From an uncultured Bacteroidota bacterium (lineage in GTDB: Bacteria; Bacteroidota; Bacteroidia; AKYH767-A; OLB10): 39,381 bases of DNA. The notes beneath the pieces are model-generated. The model saw only the letters and a program-made list of their open reading frames with translations, had not been told where the DNA came from and made no database searches. The position numbers and the translations under genes are program-made. Below are positions 18,584 to 20,828 of this stretch, piece after piece (the first letter of the stretch is position 1; each line of letters opens with the position of its first letter). The DNA is taken from contig CAADHD010000011.1 of assembly GCA_900696575.1 (NCBI GenBank), forward strand, positions 1-39,381, in the 5' to 3' direction.

Positions 18584-19863
18584 CCTGGCAGCAGGCGCTT
18601 GATTATCTCTTTGCGCAGCTTCCGATGTTTCATCGCATAGGGGCAGCCGCTTATAAGAATAATCTAGATAACAGCCTGGCACTTGATAACCTGCTCCATC
18701 ATCCTCATAAAAATTATCCATGCATTCATATTGCAGGAACCAATGGAAAAGGCTCAGTTTCGAATATGCTGGCAGCCATTTATCAATCGGCCGGTTACAG
18801 AACCGGATTATTCACTTCTCCTCATCTGAAAGATTTCAGAGAGAGAATACGTGTTGACGGTAAAATGATTAGCCGGCAATATGTGATACGGTTCATTGAA
18901 AATCATAGAACTGAATTTGAAAAAATTCAACCTTCATTTTTTGAGTGGACTGCTGCATTAGCTTTTGATTTTTTCAGAAATAAAAAAATTGATATTGCCA
19001 TCATCGAAACCGGGTTGGGAGGAAGGCTCGATTCCACCAACATCATCACACCTGATTTGTCTGTCATCACCAATATCGGATGGGATCATGCTTATCTGCT
19101 GGGTAACAGTCTTCAGAAAATTGCTGCCGAAAAGGCAGGCATCATCAAATCAGGTGTTCCTGTTGTAATTGGTGAAAAGCAAGAACCCGTAAAAGCGGTT
19201 TTTGAAAATAAGGCGAAAGATGCTGCCAGTCCGCTCGTTTTTGCTTCAGAGAATTTTAAAATTGTAAAAAAGGCAGAATTAGTTCAGAGAATGAAAGTGG
19301 ACATCTTTCACAAACGAAAACAATATCTGAAAGATGTTATTATGGATTTAACCGGATTTTATCAGCTAAAGAACATATGTAGTGTTCTGCAAGCGGTTCA
19401 AATGCTGAACAGAAAATTTCCGGTGGAAGAAAAACATATCCGTAAGGGATTGAAACAGGTTAAAAAGATTACCGGTTTTAATGGACGATGGACGGTTTTA
19501 TCAAAACAACCAATGATTATTGCTGATACGGGACACAACCGTGAAGGAATCTCTGAAGTTATAAAGCAGATTGAATCCATAAAATTTAGCAGGCTGCATA
19601 TTATTCTTGGAATGGTGGCCGATAAAGATGTTAATTCTGTTTTAAGAATGTTTCCCCGAAATGCAGAGTATTATTTCTGCAAACCATCAGTTCCGCGCGG
19701 ATTGGATGCCGGGCAGTTGTGCGAATCAGCAAAGAAATTCGGGTTATCAGGAAAAAGTTTTTTCTCCGTTAAAAGTGCCTTAAAAACTGCAAAAATTAAT
19801 GCGGGTAGAGGTGACCTGATATTTATCGGAGGCAGCACTTTTGTGGTTTCTGAAATCATTTAA
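18580..19863 (+). CDS. folC: Folylpolyglutamate synthase / dihydrofolate synthase
   Basis: A 427-residue Mur-ligase-family enzyme. The ATP-binding loop GTNGKGSV is at residues 53-60, and TSPHLKDFRERIRVDG contains the Omega-loop signature. TGLGGRLDSTN and ITNIGWDHAYLLG supply Mg2+ and folate contacts, and IADTGHNREG lies at the domain boundary. It adds glutamate to folates and probably also makes dihydrofolate from dihydropteroate. Its ATG overlaps the stop of the TonB-like gene, so translation of the two is probably coupled despite unrelated functions. Length fits the bifunctional enzyme. Confidence 0.94.
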   Translation: MTWQQALDYLFAQLPMFHRIGAAAYKNNLDNSLALDNLLHHPHKNYPCIHIAGTNGKGSVSNMLAAIYQSAGYRTGLFTSPHLKDFRERIRVDGKMISRQYVIRFIENHRTEFEKIQPSFFEWTAALAFDFFRNKKIDIAIIETGLGGRLDSTNIITPDLSVITNIGWDHAYLLGNSLQKIAAEKAGIIKSGVPVVIGEKQEPVKAVFENKAKDAASPLVFASENFKIVKKAELVQRMKVDIFHKRKQYLKDVIMDLTGFYQLKNICSVLQAVQMLNRKFPVEEKHIRKGLKQVKKITGFNGRWTVLSKQPMIIADTGHNREGISEVIKQIESIKFSRLHIILGMVADKDVNSVLRMFPRNAEYYFCKPSVPRGLDAGQLCESAKKFGLSGKSFFSVKSALKTAKINAGRGDLIFIGGSTFVVSEII

Positions 19864-19872
19864 ATGGATTCC

Positions 19873-19902
19873 TTGCATTTAATTAACCCATCTCTATATT
19901 TG
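19873..19902 (+). promoter_or_regulatory. Consensus Bacteroidota promoter for the tRNA / GIY-YIG unit
   Basis: TTG at 19873-19875 is followed after exactly 19 bp by TATATTTG at 19895-19902. This is a full match to the TTG-N19-TAnnTTTG promoter form known in Bacteroidota. It lies just after the folC stop and would start transcription near 19908, upstream of the degenerate tRNA, tRNA-Val and the nuclease gene. Confidence 0.75.
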
Positions 19903-19937
19903 CGCTCCGTTTTTTAAAAGAGTTGGTATTATTTAAA

Positions 19938-20010
19938 GAGAGCATAGCTCAACTGGTTCAGAGCATCCCGACAGCAAGTCGGGAGGGTCAGAGGTTGAGA
20001 AAATGCTTAC
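19938..20010 (+). pseudogene. Degenerate tRNA (tRNA-Val-like 5' half, altered anticodon arm)
   Basis: The first half matches the intact tRNA-Val 76 bp downstream almost base for base: GAGAGCA for GGGAGCA, then TAGCTCAACTGGTTCAGAGCA for TAGCTCAGCTGGTTCAGAGCA. The anticodon arm is replaced by TCCCGA-CAGCAAG-TCGGGA, a 6-bp stem whose 7-base loop lacks the U33 needed for function. The variable loop GGGTC is kept. The T-arm (AGAGGTTGAGAAAATG) no longer pairs, and the 3' acceptor strand (TGCTTAC) mispairs. It is therefore a non-functional tRNA relic. Confidence 0.75.
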
Positions 20011-20013
20011 ATT

Positions 20014-20088
20014 GGGAGCATAGCTCAGCTGGTTCAGAGCACCTGCCTTACAAGCAGGGGGTCACAGGTTCGATCCCTGTTGCTCCCA
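20014..20088 (+). tRNA. tRNA-Val (anticodon UAC)
   Basis: A complete 75-nt cloverleaf. The acceptor stem GGGAGCA pairs with TGCTCCC with discriminator A at 20088. The D-arm is GCTC...GAGC. The anticodon stem CCTGC/GCAGG encloses loop CTTACAA, giving anticodon TAC. The variable loop is GGGTC. The T-stem ACAGG/CCTGT has loop TTCGATC. All stems pair fully. The 3' CCA is not encoded (ACAAAA follows), so it must be added after transcription. The GIY-YIG gene starts 12 nt beyond the discriminator base. Confidence 0.97.
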
Positions 20089-20100
20089 CAAAAAAAAACA

Positions 20101-20385
20101 GTGGCGGTATTTTATATCCTTTTTTCCAAGGCTAAAGACCGGTATTACATCGGTTACACAACCGATATACTTGCAGAACGTATCAGACGTCACAACGCAA
20201 ACCACAAAGGATTTACCGGAAAAACTTCAGATTGGGAATTGGTTTATTCTGAGAGTTATTCAGACAATCTGCGGGCACATACCCGCGAAAGGGAAGTAAA
20301 GCGCTGGAAAAGCCGTAAAATGATTGAAAAGTTGATAAAAACACAATCTTCAGAAGTGCTGCCGGGTTCTGAGCATCCCGAATAA
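20101..20385 (+). CDS. GIY-YIG domain nuclease, tRNA-associated
   Basis: A 94-residue protein essentially made of one GIY-YIG nuclease domain: VFYILFSK (GIY strand), DRYYIGYT (YIG strand, residues 13-20), Arg in ERIRRH (about 27-31), and the helix with REREVKRWKSR (about 62-72) holding the conserved Glu. The start is GTG 20101; the frame is open back into the tRNA T-arm with no ATG available. The last residues GSEHPE and the stop are encoded by DNA of a downstream tRNA relic. Single-domain members of the UvrC/URI-like subfamily are common next to tRNA genes in Bacteroidota, but their role is unclear. The gene has no promoter of its own and would be read with tRNA-Val. Confidence 0.87.
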   Translation: MAVFYILFSKAKDRYYIGYTTDILAERIRRHNANHKGFTGKTSDWELVYSESYSDNLRAHTREREVKRWKSRKMIEKLIKTQSSEVLPGSEHPE

Positions 20386-20435
20386 CAGTCGGGAAAAACA
20401 ACCCGATACAGATCGGGATTGCTCACACAAAAAAA
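20371..20435 (+). repeat. 3' half of a degenerate tRNA flanking the GIY-YIG gene
   Basis: GAGCATCCCGA-ataac-AGTCGGGA (20371-20394) repeats GAGCATCCCGA-cagca-AGTCGGGA (19961-19984) of the upstream tRNA relic, with the same length and only the 5-base loop differing. A second hairpin CCCGAT-ACAG-ATCGGG (20402-20417) occupies the place of a T-arm. TTGCTCACACAAAAAAA (20419-20435) matches the 3' end of tRNA-Val and its tail (TTGCTCCCACAAAAAAA from 20080) at all but one base. The nuclease stop codon lies inside this element. Confidence 0.72.
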
Positions 20436-20573
20436 TTGAATAGAACATATTTATTAGAATGCATTTTTTCTTGAGCAGTGCCAAAAGTTTCAGTTTTTGA
20501 TAAATTTTGAGATAACCCATCAGAGGTTTCAATAAATTCTGTCTTGTGAATTATTTTTTCTCTCATGTTCGCG

Positions 20574-20828
20574 CTACAATTCCCTCACTTCCTCCACAGC
20601 TTTAATTTCAGGCACAGCTTTTAAAATAGCTTGCTCAATGCCGGCACGCATAGTCATGGCGCTCATGCTACAGGTGCTGCATGCGCCCTGCAATTCAATT
20701 CTTGCAATCAGATCATCCGTTACTTCCACTAATTGCACATCACCTTCATCGGCTTGTAAAAAAGGACGAACCTCATCCAGCGCTTTTTCTATACGCTGCA
20801 TTAACTGATTCAATTGATCAATTTGCAT
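20574..20828 (-). CDS. NifU C-terminal-domain Fe-S scaffold protein
   Basis: An 84-residue protein that is a single NifU-like (Nfu) domain. GACSTCSM carries the CxxC pair (Cys50 and Cys53) that binds a labile [4Fe-4S] cluster at a dimer interface, and MTMRAGIEQAI follows as usual. It would deliver Fe-S clusters to target proteins. The ATG at 20828 gives the conserved start (IDQLNQLMQRIEKALDEVRP), while a longer frame to 20978 runs inside mrp and is not domain-like. It overlaps the 3' end of mrp by 11 bp, so the two are likely translated together and work in one Fe-S pathway. Confidence 0.9.
   Translation of the reverse strand: MQIDQLNQLMQRIEKALDEVRPFLQADEGDVQLVEVTDDLIARIELQGACSTCSMSAMTMRAGIEQAILKAVPEIKAVEEVREL

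Follow-up and report, generated by a model that had tools for sequence, protein, structure and literature searches.

Organization of the tRNA-Val locus

The window, which is the whole stretch of 39,381 nucleotides that was analyzed, comes from the genome of an uncultured Bacteroidota bacterium (G000, 2.87 Mb in 35 contigs). Within it a tRNA-Val relic, an intact tRNA-Val gene, a gene for a small GIY-YIG nuclease and a 3' tRNA relic lie in a row, an arrangement claimed in an earlier note on this DNA and borne out by ARAGORN, Rfam, the Pfam domain PF01541 and reading of the sequence. The features are as follows.

19895..19902, forward strand: promoter-like TATATTTG; a like motif lies shortly before the tRNA in the empty site of genome G001
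19940..19999, forward strand: left relic, consisting of the tRNA-Val 5' part, a palindrome in place of the anticodon arm and a T-arm-like stretch
19966..19984, forward strand: left-relic palindrome, TCCCGA-N7-TCGGGA, which takes the place of the anticodon arm
20014..20089, forward strand: intact tRNA-Val(tac) (ARAGORN; Rfam tRNA, 72.7 bits)
20101..20385, forward strand: GIY-YIG nuclease gene, 94 codons, single domain, with a likely GTG start at 20101 and the stop at 20383-20385
about 20365..20437, forward strand: right relic, consisting of the D-arm end, two palindromes and the acceptor 3' end with an A run; homologous right relics occur at other loci
20376..20394, forward strand: right-relic palindrome 1, which replaces the anticodon arm
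20402..20417, forward strand: right-relic palindrome 2, in the T-arm region; a second palindrome in the T loop is also found in the relics of genome G148

The promoter-like element fits what we take to be the Bacteroidota TAnnTTTG motif, and of the 40 tRNA genes detected in G000 only the intact one described here is of the tac type. The left relic matches nucleotides 3-30 of tRNA-Val at 96% (48 bits, BLAST) and its palindrome reads TCCCGACAGCAAGTCGGGA. The right relic opens with GGTTC-TGAGCA, from which the D arm of the tRNA differs at one position, and ends in TTGCTCACACAAAAAAA, which departs by a single nucleotide from the 3' end of the tRNA with its A run. The main palindromes of the two relics have the stem TCCCGA/TCGGGA in common and differ in their loops. 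Because the last codons of the nuclease gene fall in the right relic, the C-terminus of the protein is GSEHPE. The shared stem with unlike loops, the one-mismatch repeat of the tRNA 3' end and A tail behind the nuclease, and the relic-encoded C-terminus had all been proposed in the earlier note, and all are present.

Besides the nuclease gene, the longest open reading frame in the unit has 70 codons, and no gene for a tyrosine or serine integrase is found there. A scan of positions 19800-20600 against Rfam lists the tRNA alone above the gathering score and no intron family, and a group I intron or other known RNA is rejected on this basis. A match to Plastid-ycf2 was likewise discarded, as it is the antisense of the tRNA and falls below the gathering score, as was a match to IS009 with an E-value of 0.88.

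The nuclease

PF01541 (E = 1.1e-14) is the sole Pfam match of the window nuclease at E 0.001, and no Y1 (HUH) transposase is detected at this threshold. An alignment of 12 Val-type proteins, which are 52-61% identical to the window protein, shows no variation at Y5, G18, R27, H31 and E63 and hardly any at Y16. These residues presumably answer to the tyrosines of the GIY-YIG motif and to its Arg, His and Glu positions, and their conservation suggests that nuclease activity has been kept. The PF01541 domain together with the motif residues places the protein in the GIY-YIG superfamily.

The predicted structure contains a single GIY-YIG domain (pLDDT 78.7) followed by a low-confidence tail. The best Foldseek matches in the PDB are 1ZG2 (a UPF0213 protein) and 6SEH (Slx1), with 1LN0 (the catalytic domain of I-TevI) lower down; the E-values are modest, with 1.7e-3 at best and none at 0.001 or below. 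Homing endonucleases usually have a separate DNA-binding region for recognition of a long target. Neither the sequence nor the structure model of the 94-residue window protein has an evident DNA-binding domain or region.

Related copies and relics in the source genome

Six PF01541 matches are found in G000, three of which lie directly behind same-strand tRNA genes: Val-tac (the window), Asp-gtc, where the nuclease copy carries an in-frame TAG, and Pro-ggg, where the copy is decayed. Inspection by eye reveals another GIY-YIG gene, absent from the Pfam list, directly behind tRNA-Arg(acg) on the minus strand of contig C9 (L153, 1-150), where it is truncated by the contig end. A GIY-YIG gene on contig C7 (L001, 3617-5571) has no nearby tRNA and has copies of a longer repeat (around GTCATGCCGAGG) on either side.

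Relics lie beside six of the 40 tRNA genes (Val-tac, Asp-gtc, Lys-ctt, Pro-tgg, Arg-acg and, weakly, Arg-ccg), as found by a relic search. In the Val, Lys and Pro-tgg relics a TCCCGA-type palindrome stands in place of the anticodon arm; the palindrome of the Asp relic is TCTCGTCA/TGACGAGA, and that of the Arg-acg relic sits in the D arm. Arrays of palindrome-bearing 5' fragments of tRNA-Lys(ctt), with a period of about 86-90 bp and no visible nuclease, occupy the ends of two contigs (L119 1-275 on C35 and L014 1-345 on C22), and these contigs may be joined through the array. Likewise, tRNA-Pro(tgg) is followed by 3' fragments with a palindrome for the anticodon arm in an array at a contig end (L147 2270-2438, L114 2740-2994), and the end of contig C32 probably continues on C3.

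Recurrence across Bacteroidota

The same layout was sought in the host family, in the class and in named genomes. The Pfam table for the family has 113 rows, of which 71 (frames up to 197 aa) were kept and 42 long-frame rows set aside. An intact same-strand tRNA lies less than 300 bp upstream of 23 of the 71 short GIY-YIG genes and is lacking for the other 48, and a BLAST search, which misses short or decayed relics such as that of Pro-ggg, finds relics at 26 of the 71. In a control with long-frame (UvrC- or exonuclease-like) GIY-YIG genes, none of 10 drawn from the 42 has a tRNA within 300 bp.

The class survey covered 247 genomes, 77 of them with a match at E 1e-8. The resulting table has 122 rows, of which 109 were analyzed; three rows from the host's own family, nine further copies of two arrays in genome G129 and a second row from G123 were omitted. 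An intact same-strand tRNA is present at most 300 bp upstream at 70 of 96 loci, a total that counts one G129 array twice. The remaining 26 have no intact tRNA within that distance; two of them have less than 150 bp of flank, and one is the array counted twice. Among the tRNA genes within 300 bp of the class loci, 81 are on the same strand and one is on the opposite strand. Twelve of the best 20 rows outside G000 (40-61% identity) lie behind tRNA-Val(tac), in nine host families; four lie behind Pro, Ala or Arg, and four have no intact tRNA and carry Val-type relics as judged by eye.

Named genomes yielded 415 relatives of the Val lineage, and the best 80, which include proteins from Algoriphagus, Marivirga, Echinicola, Belliella, Cyclobacterium, Niabella and Niastella, were analyzed with relics sought by a Val-type pattern only. 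A tRNA is found at most 300 bp upstream in 62 of the 80 (Val-tac 54, Val-aac 2, Arg-tct 6); four of the other 18 have less than 160 bp of flank. Loci of Bacteroidota type also occur in metagenome bins titled Streptomyces griseus, Bifidobacterium breve and Limnohabitans (L273, L284, L295), which are probably misnamed or contaminated.

These surveys confirm that the window locus is one case of a layout that recurs across Bacteroidota. It had been stated previously that small GIY-YIG genes are often found beside tRNA genes in this phylum; the genomes agree, but the statement appears in no open-licence paper searched. A search of 50,697 phage records with the window protein gives no match at E 1e-5, and plasmids likewise yield no copy. 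Viral contigs, scanned with another alignment, gave none that could be confirmed. A phage or plasmid origin is rejected on the basis of these searches.

tRNA relics and their break points

A relic of the neighboring tRNA, interrupted by a palindromic insert with a stem of at least 6, is found at 54 of 94 loci. When a tRNA for another amino acid is used in the search, the mean falls to 0.8 loci (maximum 2 in 20 draws), and shuffled flanks give 0.1 (10 draws). Consequently, the flanking similarity exceeds what is expected of any two tRNA genes, an outcome on which the earlier note had made its proposal depend, and chance similarity between two tRNAs is rejected.

In total, 114 interrupted relics were found, 100 of which have an insert stem of at least 6. 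Break points were counted over loci whose relics have such stems, and for several tRNAs the same segment is missing time after time:

Asn: break 25|36 (nt 26-35 missing) at 8 of 10 loci
Val: break 28-30|44-48 (about nt 29-45 missing) at 10 of 12 loci
Met: break 37-38|48-49 (nt 38/39-47/48 missing) at 6 of 12 loci
Asp: break 38|51 (nt 39-50 missing) at 5 of 6 loci

Other breaks are seen in Val relics of G006 and G016 (54|58, nt 55-57 missing), in Asn relics of G158 (59|63, nt 60-62 missing) and in Met relics of G148 (35|41, nt 36-40 missing), and both Asn breaks are present in G010, which belongs to the second Asn lineage. Nucleases at loci with the same break are more alike than those at loci with different breaks for Asn (median identity 47 versus 41%), Met (53 versus 36%) and Val (58 versus 41%); for Asp, break position does not track nuclease similarity (51% for the same break versus 56% for different ones). 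Nor does it for Ala, where no break is common to the loci, and the Arg relics are mixed, with some insertions that entail almost no loss of tRNA sequence. A single fixed break point for every tRNA is rejected by the Ala and Arg loci. Taken over all relics, inserts occur in the D, anticodon and T regions.

Nuclease lineages and tRNA identity

The relationship between nuclease and tRNA was probed with a tree of 83 tRNA-linked domains (upstream tRNA at most 300 bp away, at least 60 residues, non-identical sequences), which is built on 79 columns and leaves 43 of 80 inner branches open. On this tree the tRNA label undergoes 28 changes, compared with 56.8 when labels are shuffled, and none of 200 shuffles gives so low a number; the Val label needs four changes. 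Host family changes 62 times, which equals the lowest value among 100 shuffles (62) and lies close to their mean (64.7), although this comparison has little power given the few rows per family. Each set against its shuffles, the two counts indicate that the nuclease follows the tRNA and hardly the host family. Thus, nuclease lineages keep mostly to one isoacceptor, which goes beyond the earlier note, as does the finding that the palindrome is a regular part of the relics.

These results bear on the simplest account of the locus, in which ordinary tRNA duplication and decay took place beside an unrelated small gene. While tRNA genes do duplicate and some copies of the unit are decayed, the tRNA-specific lineages, the recurrent breaks and the mismatched-tRNA control contradict this account, as does the same-strand order of 81 of the 82 nearby tRNAs, and it is scarcely credible.

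Empty, occupied and multiple alleles

Comparison of the locus in relatives had been suggested as a check on mobility, and empty alleles are indeed found. In the host family (24 genomes, 23 folC loci), a tRNA-Val(tac) gene lies near the end of folC and on its strand in five genomes; in G010 it is further off and on the opposite strand. In G001, from the same genus, and in G012 and G013, from the same family, one intact tRNA-Val comes after folC, and neither a nuclease match nor a relic is seen at these folC/tRNA-Val sites. The tRNA-Val genes of G001 and the window are identical as judged by eye. In G016, tRNA-Val is followed by tandem 3' relics whose T loop holds a palindrome, and beyond them by a nuclease closer to that of G006 than to that of the window.

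The genus of G148 offers a second comparison (59 genomes, 52 with the flanking dehydrogenase, 30 loci compared). Of these 30 dehydrogenase loci, 7 carry tRNA-Val and the nuclease, 13 carry tRNA-Val alone, and 10 have no tRNA-Val in range. Free alleles (L345, L356) read tRNA, tRNA, terminator, next gene, and the occupied allele L333 reads tRNA, tRNA, terminator and then two units of nuclease, relic and terminator. The dehydrogenase fragments of G310 and G148 are 99% identical, and G310 has no nuclease; they do not form a clean before-and-after pair, because the tRNA-Val pair of G310 lies in the other orientation. Across L333-L362, tRNA-Val occurs in either orientation beside the same dehydrogenase. 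Four tandem relic-terminator units without a nuclease match are found at L340 (2840-3400), which looks like an internally deleted form.

Tandem units are a further feature of these loci. In genome G129 a 457-bp unit is present in ten copies behind tRNA-Met and a 379-bp unit in four behind tRNA-Asn, G148 has two units of 367 bp that consist of nuclease, relic and terminator only, and the class survey shows two or three units at each of ten more loci. At the sites examined, the arrays multiply relics and nuclease, with the intact tRNA present once or twice. The tandem units and the direct repeats of the tRNA 3' part and terminator fit insertion with restoration of the tRNA. Consequently, the earlier suggestion of a mobile unit that inserts at tRNA 3' ends and restores them stands in part: the empty alleles, tandem units and direct repeats agree with mobility and restoration, but the break is inside the tRNA, in the anticodon arm in the window, rather than at its 3' end.

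Two other explanations are best judged against these alleles. The first is that the locus is a remnant of an integrase-type element that had integrated in tRNA genes. Integration commonly takes place at such genes, and a repeat of the tRNA 3' part is present here; nevertheless, the unit has no room for an integrase, and bare units are repeated with nothing beyond nuclease, relic and terminator in G148, which makes this origin highly improbable. The second is a host-serving or neutral module of the tRNA locus, inherited mainly with it, in which the nuclease would amplify the tRNA region or transcripts of the relics would act as decoys or regulators. A study of phage T6 reports that the GIY-YIG nuclease SegB drives tandem amplification of tRNA-Tyr plus segB (PMC13096335), and tandem units recur in the present loci. 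The left relic of the window lies between the promoter-like motif and the tRNA and so may be transcribed. A module of this kind is nonetheless improbable: its presence is patchy within a genus, its lineages are scattered over host families, some copies are decayed, and it is relics and nuclease that the arrays multiply, with only one or two intact tRNAs.

Palindromes inside and outside the relics

The motif TCCCGA-N3..12-TCGGGA occurs 13 times in the 2.87 Mb of G000, compared with once for the reversed control, and is therefore present more than by chance. Eight of the 13 are in tRNA relics as judged by eye (two at Val, six in the contig-end tRNA-Lys arrays); two of the other five were examined, and both lack tRNA context. 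In eight genomes that carry the element, TCCCGA-N3..10-TCGGGA occurs 4, 47, 14, 31, 14, 43, 53 and 16 times, compared with 0 to 5 for the reversed control. Examination of 18 further palindrome stretches revealed three tRNA relic arrays and 15 stretches without tRNA context by eye, including all 12 from G122. In that genome an 18-bp palindrome, TCCCGATAGCTATCGGGA, is dispersed at many places with no visible tRNA context (L389-L400). Since the 12 G122 copies lack tRNA context, the palindrome is not private to the element, and the idea of purely tRNA-private palindromes is rejected. The two halves of the Val hairpins pair at 98%, compared with 91% when halves are shuffled, in hairpins preselected for a stem of at least 5, so that only pairs 6 and 7 are informative and covariation is weakly supported.

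The dispersed palindromes raise the possibility that a structure-selective GIY-YIG enzyme, comparable in this to the RAYT transposases of REP elements, inserts or mobilizes small palindromes, for which tRNA genes, which fold when single-stranded, are only a favored landing place. The stem of at least 6 in 100 of the 114 interrupted relics is consistent with this idea, as are the spread of inserts over the D, anticodon and T regions, the dispersal of palindromes of this type in G122 and the repeat-flanked GIY-YIG gene of G000 that has no tRNA. The predicted fold, with its matches to Slx1, a branched-DNA nuclease, and to UPF0213, may point in the same direction. In contrast, nuclease lineages track tRNA identity, and the same segment is replaced at the majority of Asn, Val and Asp loci and at half of the Met loci despite differing palindromes. 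Furthermore, 8 of the 13 G000 palindromes and 3 of the 18 further stretches, albeit not the other 15, are in tRNA relics. An enzyme directed to hairpins as such is thus a possible explanation, but an unlikely one.

Proposed mechanism

The layout, its recurrence, the tRNA-specific lineages, the recurrent breaks and the empty and multi-copy alleles are read from sequence, and from them we somewhat favor a homing-endonuclease-type selfish element of very small size that resides in a single tRNA gene. Its cutting, movement, homing and protection, as well as any role of the palindrome, are what we infer in the following scheme. First, the nuclease would cut an unoccupied tRNA-Val gene in the segment absent from the relics (the anticodon arm, about nt 29-45). 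Next, the ends would be repaired on an occupied locus, where nt 1-28 of the tRNA would serve for the 5' end and the relic (nt 46-76 and the terminator) for the 3' end, and this repair would copy in the nuclease gene and relic. A working tRNA would be kept for the host, because the copied stretch contains the remainder of the tRNA. Finally, the relics would be uncuttable, as the target segment is gone and a palindrome stands in its place. Tandem arrays could arise from a cut at the intact copy followed by repair on neighboring relics. The layout is as a homing enzyme would leave it in an indispensable gene, since the interruption falls in the tRNA segment missing from the relics and the insert restores the rest.

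The homing scheme has weak points, namely the intact tRNA as presumed target, the lack of an evident DNA-binding part, and the palindrome, which is foreign to standard homing. The presumed target is still present in the intact tRNA of the occupied locus, where nothing protective is seen. With its one GIY-YIG domain, the nuclease is also small for a homing enzyme. Further points that speak against the scheme are the family and class loci that lack an intact upstream tRNA, the palindromes away from tRNA genes, the Asp, Ala and Arg loci that depart from the break-point pattern, the two Asn breaks of G010, the limits of the tree, the lack of copies among the plasmids and phages searched, and the defective Asp and Pro-ggg copies of G000. 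TnpB acts with a guide RNA that overlaps the 3' end of its gene. By comparison, in what would be a class-wide kind of minimal mobile element, a one-domain nuclease might be directed to the tRNA gene by the palindrome-plus-tRNA fragments. These would act either as folded single-stranded DNA or as a transcript overlapping the nuclease gene at its 3' end. Such a guide is hinted at solely by where the right relic lies, at that same 3' end, and this variant is quite improbable.

If the homing-type scheme is correct, the essential tRNA genes of a major bacterial phylum would be the habitat of many very small selfish elements, with each lineage adapted to one isoacceptor. Many small GIY-YIG genes whose role is unknown would thereby be accounted for, along with arrays of tRNA fragments and the breaks that assemblies show there, and nucleases of about 90 residues with natural preferences for different tRNA genes would become available. 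It also raises the question of how the element can live beside an intact copy of the sequence that it presumably targets.

Comparison with known systems

No description of bacterial tRNA-linked GIY-YIG units was recognized in the open-licence papers searched. Several known systems share part of the arrangement. REP elements with RAYT transposases combine a gene for a small DNA-cutting enzyme with short flanking palindromes; here the enzyme is a GIY-YIG protein, not a Y1 transposase, and the palindromes occupy recurrent positions within one tRNA. Integrative elements at tRNA genes restore the tRNA on one side and leave a partial copy on the other, whereas the present unit has no integrase, its break is internal and its partial copy lacks one segment. 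Single GIY-YIG domains of the UPF0213/Slx1 type, compared by the fold listing alone, have the fold and PF01541 in common with the window protein; unlike here, no tRNA genes are described for these entries in that listing.

The comparison with free-standing homing endonucleases is closer. Occupied and empty alleles exist at the same site, and the relics lack the recurrent segment where a recognition site would be expected, yet an intact tRNA copy stays in the occupied locus, and the separate DNA-binding region usual in homing endonucleases is not evident. The nuclease is not classed among these enzymes, because several features of membership are missing or left open.

SegB of the T-even phages, a homing endonuclease, is likewise encoded by a free-standing GIY-YIG gene beside tRNA genes (PMC13096335, PMC2988022), and tandem repeats of a tRNA-plus-nuclease unit are common to both (PMC13096335). 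Unlike phage SegB, the present gene is chromosomal in Bacteroidota, encodes about 90 residues and is flanked by palindrome-bearing tRNA fragments. The SegB study reports no favored isotype, in contrast to the lineages here, which are mostly on one isoacceptor. The best reading of these comparisons is a homing-type element aimed at one tRNA gene, which resembles phage SegB but is cellular, minimal and marked by palindromes.
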